In this document: one piece after another, positions 3,411-18,826 of the stretch | Numbering within the stretch: the stretch's first letter is position 1 | Layout of the letters: each line of letters opens with the position of its first letter | Assembly: GCA_025361935.1 (NCBI GenBank) | Contig: JANYJB010000095.1 | Coordinates: 1 to 48,978, forward strand | Length of the DNA: 48,978 bases | Reading direction: 5' to 3' | Origin: Verrucomicrobiota bacterium | Lineage (GTDB): Bacteria > Verrucomicrobiota > Verrucomicrobiia > Opitutales > Opitutaceae | Translations under genes and position numbers: made by a program | The notes under the pieces: generated by a model | The model's input: the letters and a program-made list of their open reading frames with translations, nothing else | The model's database searches: none | Told to the model about the DNA's origin: nothing

Positions 3411-3496
3411 GTAGGAGCCCGTTTACGGGCGATGAACGGCGTAAGACAACTTCAGGGAATTCGATTATCCAACATCGCCCATAAATGGGCTCCTAC
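3411..3496. repeat. REP-like elements, inverted pair (BIME-like)
   Basis: Two copies of a short palindromic element face each other. The left copy (3411-3433) reads GTAGGAGC, then CCGT-TT-ACGG, then GCGAT. The right copy (3474-3496) is the reverse complement of the same pattern with CCAT-TT-ATGG at the centre. Each copy folds on itself with a 6-bp stem around TT, the two base changes in the stem compensate each other, and the two copies together can form a long cruciform. It fills the gap between accD and folC on the minus strand. The same family occurs at 15334 and 18369. It is probably a REP/BIME-type element and may also affect termination or mRNA stability in the operon. Confidence 0.78.
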
Positions 3497-9252: not shown

Positions 9253-9579
9253 AAGAAGGTCTATGAACTAAATCTTATCGATCGTATCAAGGCTTATATC
9301 CATGTCACGAATATGCATTAGATGATCATCCTATAACAAACGTAATCCACCCCGATTCGTAATCCGCGATAAATATGCCACCGACAATTAAATCGCAAAA
9401 TATTTTCTATAAATACTTTATACTATAAAACTCCTGCCCCGCCGATTTGAAAATTAAGTTTCCATCGTTTCGCCTGCTTGTGATAAAAAAATTCCGAGTT
9501 TACAGGCCCGCAATTGTAGCCGACGCGCACGGCGTTCTCCCTTGCACGCTTCAAGGTGGGCACCGTTACTCAAGCCCAC
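9253..9579. other. AT-rich intergenic region between divergent genes
   Basis: About 330 bases without a credible gene, clearly more AT-rich than its surroundings, especially 9380-9430 (runs such as AAATACTTTATACTATAAAA). It separates the divergent HTH protein and the HTH/MBL fusion and must hold both promoters. I could not single out a convincing -35/-10 pair for either. A TATACT hexamer near 9418 is the best -10 candidate for the plus strand. Confidence 0.6.
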
Positions 9580-14654: not shown

Positions 14655-15337
14655 GCGACTCCCTCGCGCAATTTCAAACCCGCCTCGGCCACGTTTTCCG
14701 CAAGCCCGAACTGCTGCGACAGGCCCTCACGCACCCCGGCTATGCCAACGAACACCCCGAGGACGGCCAACATTACCAGCGCCTTGAATTCCTCGGCGAC
14801 GCCGTGATCCAATTCGTCGTCACCGCCGCTCTCTTCAACCTGCGCCCCGCCGAGCGCGAGGGCGAACTCAGCCGCCTCCGCGTCGCCCTCACCAACGGCG
14901 TTTTCCTCGCAGGACTTGCCCGCGAACTCGGTCTGCCCGCCCACCTGCGCCTCTGCACCGCCGAGAAAAAATCCGGCGGATCGCCCACCGCCATCGGCGA
15001 CGCCTATGAAGCGGTTGTCGGAGCGATTTTCGTCGATGCCGGCCTGCCCGCCGCCGAGGCGTTTATTCACCGCAGCTATGGCGACCTCGAAGCGCGTCTC
15101 GCCAGCTTGAAGATCGAAGACGCCAACCCCAAGGGCCGCCTTCAGGAACGCGTGCAACCGCTCCACGGCACCGGTGCCTTGCGCTACGAAACCATCCAGT
15201 CCGGCGGCGCCGACCACGCCAAAGAATACGCCTCAAGCGTTTTTCTCGCCGACCGGCTCCTCGGAACCGGTCGCGGTTCCTCAAAGAAAATCGCCGAAGA
15301 AGCCGCCGCCCGCGCCGCGCTCGCCCACGAAATGTAG
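14651..15337 (+). CDS. rnc: Ribonuclease III
   Basis: RNase III cuts double-stranded RNA in rRNA and mRNA processing. Of 228 residues. The catalytic domain has QRLEFLGDAVIQFVV (the signature LEFLGDAV) and DAYEAVVGAIFVDAG with the second acidic pair. The C-terminal dsRNA-binding domain begins at NPKGRLQERVQ and ends with SSKKIAEEAAARAAL. The start overlaps the permease stop by four bases. The stop codon TAG is the second to fourth base of a REP-like element (TGTAGGAG), so the present C-terminus seems to have been set by that repeat. Confidence 0.95.
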   Translation: MSDSLAQFQTRLGHVFRKPELLRQALTHPGYANEHPEDGQHYQRLEFLGDAVIQFVVTAALFNLRPAEREGELSRLRVALTNGVFLAGLARELGLPAHLRLCTAEKKSGGSPTAIGDAYEAVVGAIFVDAGLPAAEAFIHRSYGDLEARLASLKIEDANPKGRLQERVQPLHGTGALRYETIQSGGADHAKEYASSVFLADRLLGTGRGSSKKIAEEAAARAALAHEM

Positions 15338-15362
15338 GAGCTTGCTTGCAGGCGATTCCTCC
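15334..15362 (+). repeat. REP-like element at the rnc stop codon
   Basis: GTAGGAGC-TTGC-TT-GCAG-GCGA followed by TTCCTCC. It matches the family seen at 3411-3433 and at 18369. The inner stem GCTTGC/GCAGGC closes around TT. The rnc stop TAG (15335-15337) lies inside it, and it fills most of the gap before mfd. Confidence 0.75.
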
Positions 15363-15394: not shown

Positions 15395-18300
15395 ATGTCC
15401 GTCCTCAATCAAATCCCACGCCTCAAGCTCACCGGCATCTGTGCGCCCGCTCGCGGTGCCGTGCTCGCGGAGCTCGTGCGCGGACGCCCCGCGCCCGTCT
15501 GGCTCGTGGTCGCCGAAGAACTGAAACACGCCGAGCAACTCGCCGAAGATATCACTTTTTTTCACCGCTCCGCCGGCGGCAACCCCGCCGCGCTCGACGT
15601 CATCGTTTTCCCCGAGTCGATGCCCGACTCCCGCGACATGCGCGAAGCCTTCGCCGCCTCCTCCGACCGCATGACGGTGCTGTCAAAACTCCGCGCCACC
15701 CGCGCCGCCAGTCCGTTCACGCCACTCGCCGCCGCCAATTCCCAACTCATCGTCTTCACAACGCCCGCCGCCCTCCTCCAGCCCGTCCCCGCCATCGAGG
15801 CCTTTTCCACCCGCGAGTTCACCCTCAAGCGCGGACAAACCCAGCCGTTTCACGCCCTCCTCGAAACTCTCGGTTCCCTCGACTACGATTCCGAAGCCGT
15901 CTGCGAATCACCGGGCCACTACGCCATCCGTGGTGGCATCATCGACGTCTATCCGATCACCGCAAACCAGCCCTACCGCCTCGATTTCTTCGGCGACGAA
16001 ATCGAAGACATCCGCGCCTTTGATCCTGTTACCCAACGCTCCGGCGAACAGGTCGATTCGATCACCCTCTCCGCCTCGCCCCGCCTCAAGCTCGACTCGT
16101 CGAAAACCGGCCTGGCCGACTACCTCTCGCCTGCCACTCATCTGGTTTTTGTCGAACCCGCCGCGCTCGACGAGGAGTTCAGCGCCTTCGCTCGCGAGGG
16201 CTTTGACAACCTCACACCCATCCTCGCCCGCTGCGCCGCTGCCTTCGGCCTGAGCGACCTCGACGAAGCTTCCGCGCTGTTCGACGGCCCCGCAGTTGCC
16301 GAGTCCACCTGGGACACCGAAAGTCTACACCATCACCGCACCTATCCCTCGGACGAACTTGTCGCCCAGGAACGCCTCGCCGCCGAGGAGGAATCCCGCC
16401 GCGCCTTCCTCCAGCAACTCGTCGCCTGGAAAAAAGACGGCTACGGCCTCGCCTTCGTCGTCTCCAAGGAAGGCGAAGAGCAACGCGTCAAAGAAATCCT
16501 CGCCGAGGATTCCCGCTTCAAGGGCCTGCAACCGCTCTGGGTGCGCGGCTCGCTCAACGAAGGCTTCCGCTGCACCTACCGCGCCGACGCCGGCCTACTC
16601 TGGTCCACGTTGCCCAAACGCAAGCTCGGCGAGATCGGCGGCCTCGTGCTCGTCACCGAAACCGAACTCTTCGGCCGCCAGCGCACGCGCCGCGTTTCCA
16701 CGCCGCAGCGCGCCCTCGTCCAACGCGCGCAGGTGGACCAGCTCCTCGACTTCTCCGAGTTGGTCGAAGGCGATTTCGTCGTCCACCTCCAGCACGGCAT
16801 CGCCCTCTACCGCGGTCTCACCAAGCTCGACACGCGCGACGGCCAGCGCGAGGTCATCTCGATCGAGTTTGACGACGGCGTCACCCTTCACGTCCCGCTC
16901 CAGGAATCTCACCTCATCAGCCGCTACGTCGGCCTCGGGAAAACCAAACCCCAACTCGGAAAAATCGGTTCCGGTCGCTGGGAAAAAACCCGCCAAGCCG
17001 CCGAGCGCGCGACTATCGACCTCGCCGCCGAGCTGCTGAAAATCCACGCGATGCGCGAGGCCCAGCCCGGCCACGCCTTCGACCCAGACAACACGTGGCA
17101 AAAAGAATTCGAGGGCTCTTTCCCCTTCACGGAAACGCGGGACCAGTTGAAGGCCATCGAGGAGACCAAGGCCGACATGGAAAAAACCCGCCCGATGGAC
17201 CGCCTCATCTGCGGCGATGTCGGCTTCGGCAAGACCGAGGTCGCCATCCGCGCCGCCTTCAAGGCCGTGCAAGGTGGCAAACAGGTCGCCGTCCTCGTGC
17301 CGACCACCGTGCTTGCCCAGCAGCATCTCAACACGTTTCGCGAACGCATGGCCGGCTACCCCATCGCCGTCGAGATGGTCAGCCGCTTCCGCACCAAGGC
17401 CGAGCACACCCGCGTCCTCAACGCCACCGCCGCCGGCCAGGTTGACATCCTCGTCGGCACGCACCGCCTGCTCCAAACCGACGTCTCCTTCAACGACCTC
17501 GGCCTCGTCATCATCGACGAGGAGCAGCGCTTCGGCGTTAAGCATAAGGAGAAATTAAAAACCCTCCGCTCCACCGTGGACGTCCTCTCCATGAGCGCCA
17601 CGCCCATCCCGCGCACCCTCTACATGGCGATGACCGGCGCGCGCGACATGAGCGTCATCGAGACCGCGCCCACCAACCGACACCCGATCCAGACCATCGT
17701 CAAAACCTACGACGAAAAACTCGTCGTGGACGCCATCCGCCACGAAATCCGCCGCGGCGGTCAGGTTTTTTATCTTCATAATCGTGTCCAGACGATCGAG
17801 CTCGTCGCCGCCCGCCTCCGCGAACTTTTGCCCGACCTCACCATCGGCACCGGCCACGGCCAGATGGACGACGACGAGCTGGAAAAAACCATGACCGACT
17901 TCGTCGCCGGCACCTACCAGGTGCTCGTCTGCACGACCATCATCGAGAGCGGCCTCGATATCCCCAACTGCAACACGATCATCATCGAGGGCGCGGACCG
18001 CTTCGGACTCTCGCAACTTTATCAACTGCGTGGCCGCGTCGGCCGTTTCAAGCACCAGGCCTACGCTTATCTTTTGCTCCATCGTCACACGCGCCTCGTC
18101 GAGATCGCCCGCGAGCGTCTCAACGCCATGCGCACGCACAACCAGCTCGGCGCCGGCTTCCGCATCGCCATGCGCGACCTCGAACTGCGCGGTGCCGGCA
18201 ATCTCCTCGGCTCCCAGCAAAGCGGCCACATTATCGGTGTAGGCTTCGAGCTCTACTGCCAGTTGCTCCGCCAATCCGTCGCCCGCCTCAAAGGCGAAAA

Positions 18301-18826
18301 ACAAGCGTCCGCCATCCGCGCCAACGTGAAACTCGACTTCGTCTTCGTCGGCGAAAGTGCCTCCGAAGGTAGGAGCCTACTTGTGAGCGATTCCTCCTCC
18401 TACAAAGCCATCAAGGATGCCGAGCACACCGCCGACGGCGCCGTCGAAGTCGCCAAAATCCAGGCCCGCATTCCTCCCGCCTACATCACCGAAACTCGCC
18501 TGCGCATCGACCTCTACCGCCGCCTCGCGATGGCCGATACGCCCGCTAAACTGAAGGAAATCGAGAGCGACCTCCGCGACCGTTTCGGCAAGTTCGGCGA
18601 CGAAGTCCGCGCCCTGCTGCTGGTCACAGAAATCCGAATTCGCGCGGAACAAAAGGGCGTCATCTCCGTCGAAACCGATTCATCCCGCCTCAAGTGCCTG
18701 CGCAACACCGGCCGCCGCGACGACTTCGTGATGCTCAACACCCGGTTTCCAAGGTTGACCACCCCCAAGCCCCTCCTACGGTTAAAAGAGATCATCTCGT
18801 TTCTGAACAATCTGCCCACTCCATGA
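15395..18826 (+). CDS. mfd: Transcription-repair coupling factor
   Basis: Mfd removes RNA polymerase stalled at DNA lesions and recruits UvrA. Of 1143 residues, full length. Order of parts: UvrB-homology region (GHYAIRGGIIDVYP), the RNA polymerase-interacting domain (about residue 458, GDFVVHLQHGIALYRG), the translocase with Walker A GDVGFGKTEVA (about 606), DEEQRFGVKHKEKLK, SATPIPRTL, and TTIIESGLDIPN and QLYQLRGRVGR in the second RecA lobe. In the C-terminal part, residues about 992-1003 are encoded by a REP-like repeat in frame, just before the conserved PPAYITETRLRIDLYRRLA. That is a variable linker, so function is probably kept. The stop overlaps the next start (ATGA). Confidence 0.96.
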   Translation: MSVLNQIPRLKLTGICAPARGAVLAELVRGRPAPVWLVVAEELKHAEQLAEDITFFHRSAGGNPAALDVIVFPESMPDSRDMREAFAASSDRMTVLSKLRATRAASPFTPLAAANSQLIVFTTPAALLQPVPAIEAFSTREFTLKRGQTQPFHALLETLGSLDYDSEAVCESPGHYAIRGGIIDVYPITANQPYRLDFFGDEIEDIRAFDPVTQRSGEQVDSITLSASPRLKLDSSKTGLADYLSPATHLVFVEPAALDEEFSAFAREGFDNLTPILARCAAAFGLSDLDEASALFDGPAVAESTWDTESLHHHRTYPSDELVAQERLAAEEESRRAFLQQLVAWKKDGYGLAFVVSKEGEEQRVKEILAEDSRFKGLQPLWVRGSLNEGFRCTYRADAGLLWSTLPKRKLGEIGGLVLVTETELFGRQRTRRVSTPQRALVQRAQVDQLLDFSELVEGDFVVHLQHGIALYRGLTKLDTRDGQREVISIEFDDGVTLHVPLQESHLISRYVGLGKTKPQLGKIGSGRWEKTRQAAERATIDLAAELLKIHAMREAQPGHAFDPDNTWQKEFEGSFPFTETRDQLKAIEETKADMEKTRPMDRLICGDVGFGKTEVAIRAAFKAVQGGKQVAVLVPTTVLAQQHLNTFRERMAGYPIAVEMVSRFRTKAEHTRVLNATAAGQVDILVGTHRLLQTDVSFNDLGLVIIDEEQRFGVKHKEKLKTLRSTVDVLSMSATPIPRTLYMAMTGARDMSVIETAPTNRHPIQTIVKTYDEKLVVDAIRHEIRRGGQVFYLHNRVQTIELVAARLRELLPDLTIGTGHGQMDDDELEKTMTDFVAGTYQVLVCTTIIESGLDIPNCNTIIIEGADRFGLSQLYQLRGRVGRFKHQAYAYLLLHRHTRLVEIARERLNAMRTHNQLGAGFRIAMRDLELRGAGNLLGSQQSGHIIGVGFELYCQLLRQSVARLKGEKQASAIRANVKLDFVFVGESASEGRSLLVSDSSSYKAIKDAEHTADGAVEVAKIQARIPPAYITETRLRIDLYRRLAMADTPAKLKEIESDLRDRFGKFGDEVRALLLVTEIRIRAEQKGVISVETDSSRLKCLRNTGRRDDFVMLNTRFPRLTTPKPLLRLKEIISFLNNLPTP
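18369..18403 (+). repeat. REP-like element inside mfd, in frame
   Basis: GTAGGAGC at 18369-18376 is followed by a degenerate stem around TT, then GCGATTCCTCC, and ends with CTCCTAC (18397-18403), the exact reverse complement of the first seven bases. It is the same family as 3411-3496 and 15334-15362. It is translated as GRSLLVSDSSSY without a frameshift, inside the variable linker of Mfd. Confidence 0.75.

Follow-up and report, generated by a model that had tools for sequence, protein, structure and literature searches.

A decayed GTAG-1-type REP read in frame in the variable linker of Mfd in an Opitutaceae genome

How does a short palindromic repeat of a kind that lies mostly outside genes come to be translated within a DNA repair enzyme? 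The question is raised by mfd, the gene for the transcription-repair coupling factor, in a window of 48,978 nucleotides (the whole stretch of DNA that was analysed). The window is contig C69 of G000, a 2.48-Mb draft genome that is 88% complete, and its relatives support its placement in the Opitutaceae (Verrucomicrobiota). The original prediction was that a 35-nt REP-like palindrome, with GTAGGAG at one end and CTCCTAC at the other, is read in frame in the variable linker of Mfd. A REP is indeed present there and in frame, but the element comprises the first 23 bases of the palindrome and not all 35 (Table 1).

Table 1. Coordinates in the window of mfd, its linker, and the REP units
Feature	Position	Strand	Description
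REP, left partner of inverted pair	3411..3433	+	
REP, right partner of inverted pair	3474..3496	-	
Second REP of the same family	15334..15356	+	Its GTAG provides the TAG stop of rnc (15335-15337)
mfd, transcription-repair coupling factor	15395..18826	+	1143 aa, frame intact; TIGR00580, 965 bits (cut-off 800)
Hypervariable Mfd linker	18356..18400	+	15 residues, SASEGRSLLVSDSSS, from the translocase part to the C-terminal TRCF domain
GTAG-1-type REP	18369..18391	+	23 nt, right stem half decayed; exact match to the genome-wide pattern GTAGGAGC-N4-TT-N4-GCGAT
CTCCTAC	18397..18403	+	Host codons for a conserved Ser-Tyr; also present in relatives whose linkers are unrelated

The repeat in the mfd linker

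The Pfam domains of Mfd follow the order UvrB_inter, CarD_TRCF_RID, DEAD, Helicase_C, and TRCF. In the C-terminal fragment, none of the columns between E120 and Y136 was invariant or nearly so among 40 homologues, and the alignment with E. coli Mfd stopped at residue 993 and resumed at 1007, with query residues 306 to 353 (48 residues) unaligned in between. In a structure model of the fragment, which was of moderate quality (mean pLDDT 61), residues 116 to 137 were predicted as coil and formed the part of lowest confidence (pLDDT <50). In relatives that lack the REP, the flanks were conserved, and the linkers they enclose were unrelated in sequence but similar in length. No mfd match was found in G011, a genus member whose genome is 98% complete, and a search of plasmids with mfd gave no useful match.

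At position 18369 the sequence is GTAGGAGCCTACTTGTGAGCGAT, and together with the preceding G the REP is read as GGT AGG AGC CTA CTT GTG AGC GAT, giving GRSLLVSD (Mfd residues 992 to 999). The copy is an intragenic in-frame REP, lying in an intact, conserved gene and read through without a stop. Its tag, loop, and tail are kept; two of the five scored stem pairs are broken and, unlike the family consensus, it folds no better than shuffled sequences. It looks like an old copy that is no longer mobile.

The 35-nt palindrome GTAGGAGCCTACTTGTGAGCGATTCCTCCTCCTAC (18369-18403) is the sole such match in the window, with a chance expectation of 0.05 at up to 2 mismatches. We rejected it as a single element, its right arm being ancestral Ser-Tyr codons: CTCCTAC stands at the equivalent place in G006, G009, G010, G005, and G004, while the rest of their linkers differs. 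The palindrome is a coincidence of the head of a REP and host codons. The GTAGGAG/CTCCTAC match at 18773-18779 was likewise rejected as a further copy; it consists of the Leu-Leu-Arg codons of a conserved PKPLLRL.

The repeat had also been expected to add about 12 residues to Mfd. It encodes 8, and the linker, at 15 residues, is the shortest among the ten genus members measured (15 to 22) and close to the median of 16 across 109 loci; there is therefore no net gain of residues, and a gain of 12 was rejected. The same residues in REP-less Mfd proteins had been named as the observation that would speak against the REP, and GRSLLVSD occurred in none of about 100 relatives. The proposed alignment of relatives for an insertion border brought out conserved flanks and varied linkers; as no two linkers in the genus are alike, none offers an empty site identical except for the REP, and the alignment does not prove the polarity of the insertion.

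A GTAG-1 REP family and an associated RAYT gene

Exact matches to the pattern of the mfd copy numbered 18 in G000, where the reversed pattern, used as a control, had none; slightly degenerate units brought the number to 25. Genome-wide comparisons drew on pattern searches and on the sequence surrounding their hits. The sister genome G006 had 37 exact copies, G009 had 45, and G011 had 18. Among the 33 genomes searched, the pattern was present in 7 of the 13 from the genus of the window and in none of the 20 from other genera, with three matches in all to the reversed pattern.

We examined 138 units from seven genus members, 119 of which had no broken stem pair. The stem bases that vary, four on either side of the loop, covary, so that the stem exists in at least five perfectly paired versions (CCTGC/GCAGG in 60 units, CCCAT/ATGGG in 16, CGAGC/GCTCG in 14, CCCGT/ACGGG in 14, and CGCAT/ATGCG in 9). 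The consensus, GTAG-GA-GCNNNN-TT-NNNNGC-GAT, fits the definition of GTAG-1 REPs given by Di Nocera et al. 2013 (PMC3733652), i.e., a 5' GTAG, two unpaired bases (GW), a stem, a short loop, and a 3-bp tail. Units were found singly or in inverted pairs, and the pairs in G006 and G009 are spaced like the 3411/3474 pair of the window.

The expectation that such elements stay mostly outside genes was borne out, with only 11 of the 138 units lying inside reading frames by codon score. Separately, 12 of 136 units across the genus supplied the TAG stop of a coding-like frame, in line with what has been published on GTAG REPs; in the window this frame is rnc (ribonuclease III; TIGR02191, 198 bits).

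The family appears to be linked to a REP-associated tyrosine transposase (RAYT). In G006, a RAYT gene (C62:9681-10076; NF047646, 93.5 bits, cut-off 80) lies between two inverted pairs of the same REP, at 9515/9581 and 10126/10177, forming a REPtron; mobilizing transposases are usually arranged in this way, which suggests that RAYT mobilizes the REPs. The single RAYT-like gene of G000 (C21:3983) scored 68 bits, below the cut-off of 80, and its locus contained no REP of this family; the responsible transposase is thus absent from the 88% complete assembly. Most of the comparable REP loci of G000 lie on sequence common to G006, several with the REP inside the shared stretch, which does not indicate a recent burst. 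Together with the decayed stem of the mfd copy, this leaves the recent spread that had been proposed unsupported.

Repeats in the linkers of other genes

The codon-usage census of in-frame units, which took units near the consensus and missed strongly decayed ones (e.g., a second unit in the uvrA gene of G011), recovered mfd (G000), alaS (G000 and G006), an lplA-like ligase gene (G000, G006, and G009), uvrA (G011), hsdM (G009), and one weak case; families were assigned by alaS TIGR00344, LplA-B_cat, UvrA, and hsdM. The L208 frame (G009:C33) passed the codon test weakly and was not counted as a case. Except for hsdM and the weak case, all in-frame REPs are read in the same phase, (N)GT AGG AGC NNN NTT NNN NGC GAT, which is free of stops with all stems observed, and yield peptides resembling [CG]xSxLAxD. 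In the uvrA gene of G011 (L305, G011:C97), we observed two in-frame units, CRSLLAGD and, some 300 residues further on, a decayed RSNELARD.

In alaS of G000, G006, and G008, the REP is read in the frame used in mfd, as CRSELARD or GGSELARD. The G008 gene carries GTGGGAGCGAGCTTGCTCGCGAT, the corresponding position in G001 holds a decayed form, and the alaS REP may therefore be ancestral there. The REP-bearing linker of AlaS has 41 residues, compared to 40 to 43 in most others. The lplA-like gene contains a whole inverted REP pair in G000 and G006 (CRSLLAGD...); in G009, one unit (CGSELARD) occupies that position. Anchor-to-anchor lengths in this protein were 33 to 39 residues without a REP and 56 to 58 with the pair, so the pair is clearly an insertion. 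Relatives had alaS and lplA-like genes that lacked the REP and kept the flanks. The 75-nt pair with its spacer, read in frame (L254/L255; G000:C57 and G006:C4), is identical in the two genomes; outside it, the locus has a mean mismatch of 12 per 75-nt window.

Where the REP is missing from these linkers in sister species, other repeats may occupy them. The mfd linker of G006 holds GAACGGACCTCCCGGTCCGTTTC, a palindrome with a perfect 8-bp stem, reached by 3 per 1,000 shuffles. This is its sole copy in G006; it is multicopy in G010, G011, and G003, in pairs about 50 nt apart, and in G011 palindromes of this type stand on both sides of another RAYT-like gene. The perfect-stem statistics were not significant for the mfd linkers of G001, G002, G007, and G009, and we do not claim these as palindromes. 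Repeats of 7 bases fill linkers in G005 (mfd and alaS), G004 (alaS and, more weakly, lplA), and G010 (mfd and, by eye, uvrA). One such pattern had 107 matches in G005, 81 in G004, and 43 in G010, counts for which the reversed pattern is a poor control, as the repeats resemble it. As a further observation, very many (TCTCARC)n-type 7-base repeats are dispersed in these three genomes and are also translated in linkers of mfd, alaS, lplA, and uvrA. The repeat in a linker thus tends to be one abundant in that genome, in a set of few genes that were chosen for having a REP.

Origin of the insert and known parallels

Taken together, we consider it very probable that the mfd insert belongs to the GTAG-1 superfamily of REPs, that RAYT spread it, and that it entered the linker in this Opitutaceae lineage and has since decayed, with the frame kept and the spacer likely neutral. 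RAYT would have delivered the element into the linker; the stop-free phase, and a length of 24 nt for the unit with one flanking base, would have let the mfd frame survive. The segment between the translocase and the C-terminal domain would accept hydrophilic sequence of nearly every kind, and its length would have stayed close to the usual one, either because small deletions trimmed it after the insertion or because the REP replaced earlier linker sequence. GRSLLVSD would then most likely be a neutral spacer.

An origin by recombination, in which a whole mfd segment was acquired from a lineage that already bore the REP and no transposition took place here, seems unlikely. Gene trees lend it something, as G006 groups with G005 for mfd (81/81) and with G000 for alaS (94/92), and so does the mfd linker of G006, which holds a palindrome multicopy elsewhere in the genus. 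These tree supports are modest, however, and a survey of about 100 loci turned up no donor whose mfd bears the same REP.

Still less probable is a selected role for the peptide or its DNA, such as hinge tuning in Mfd or control of mfd at the DNA level through gyrase or RNA structure. REPs do occur in several repair genes here (mfd and uvrA), published cases include uvrABC, recBCD, and polA (PMC3733652), and the REP pair in the lplA-like gene is identical in two genomes whose surrounding sequence has diverged. However, the last could result from gene conversion or recent exchange, uvrA of the same two genomes being 95% identical, and the mfd copy has a decayed stem, encodes residues conserved in no relative, and is replaced in sister species by unrelated sequence. 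The functional domestication that had been suggested thus found no evidence, and all observations agree with tolerance in a linker under no constraint. Finally, that coding sequence merely resembles a REP by chance is hardly credible, since, despite the mismatched 3' stem arm and a terminal CTCCTAC unrelated to the REP, all 15 fixed positions are exact, the reversed pattern is nearly absent, and the copy shares phase and orientation with those in alaS, lplA, and uvrA.

Beyond the probable insertion of a RAYT-borne REP, a wider reading can be offered tentatively: the linkers of mfd, alaS, the lplA-like gene, and uvrA might be recurrent landing or exchange sites in this genus, which each species fills in frame, and often at near-constant length, with its own abundant short repeat (7-base repeats, the GTAG-1 REP, or the second REP-like palindrome). 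Selfish repeats would then serve as an interchangeable source of linkers. This recurrence of different repeats in shared linkers is what deserves follow-up. The locus offers a concrete case of a selfish extragenic repeat being turned into part of a housekeeping enzyme. Sister species with different repeats in the same linkers are natural replicates, which would permit a direct test of whether the inserts are neutral or alter repair and translation enzymes. Caution is also called for with RSxLAxD-like stretches in Opitutaceae proteins, as they may be translated REPs and not motifs.

In-frame insertion of REPs has already been described in this group, and what is new is that different repeats have recurrently come to occupy the same linkers. 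Intragenic in-frame REPs were published in 2013, with Opitutus terrae the richest for the GTAG type (PMC3733652). As reported there, GTAG REPs have repair genes among their targets and supply TAG stops, and flexible linkers were proposed as the reason for their tolerance. The intragenic REPs of O. terrae resemble those studied here in phylum and class, in the GTAG tag, and in lying in frame in known genes, and they likewise hit repair genes, namely, both uvrA genes and DNA ligase (PMC3733652). In contrast, our host belongs to another genus and its mfd copy is a single decayed unit. The main text of PMC3733652 does not name mfd, we found no alaS among the tRNA synthetases it gives as examples, and that main text does not describe sister species in which other repeat families fill one and the same linker; the one comparable same-linker case in that paper concerns recB of two Xanthomonas species.

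The Rickettsia palindromic elements can be regarded as the better known parallel, as palindromic repeats found in frame in functionally unrelated genes (PMC10969869). RPE-1 is about 150 bp and without the GTAG tag, whereas the unit here has 23 nt and gives 8 residues; this comparison concerns behavior as described in the literature. Closer in form are the Pseudomonas-type GTAG-1 REPs (e.g., GTAGGAGCGAGCTTGCTCGCGA; with RAYTs and REPINs), which share the GTAG followed by two unpaired bases, a stem, a 2-nt loop, and a 3-nt tail, as well as inverted pairs about 50 nt apart and a RAYT between REP pairs. Here, however, copies number in the tens and not in the hundreds, the host is a member of the Verrucomicrobiota, and a fraction is translated. 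In a side observation at L231/L279 (G011:C24), members of a second REP-like family, GGAGGACGGACCTCCCGGTCCGTCC, border another RAYT-like gene.
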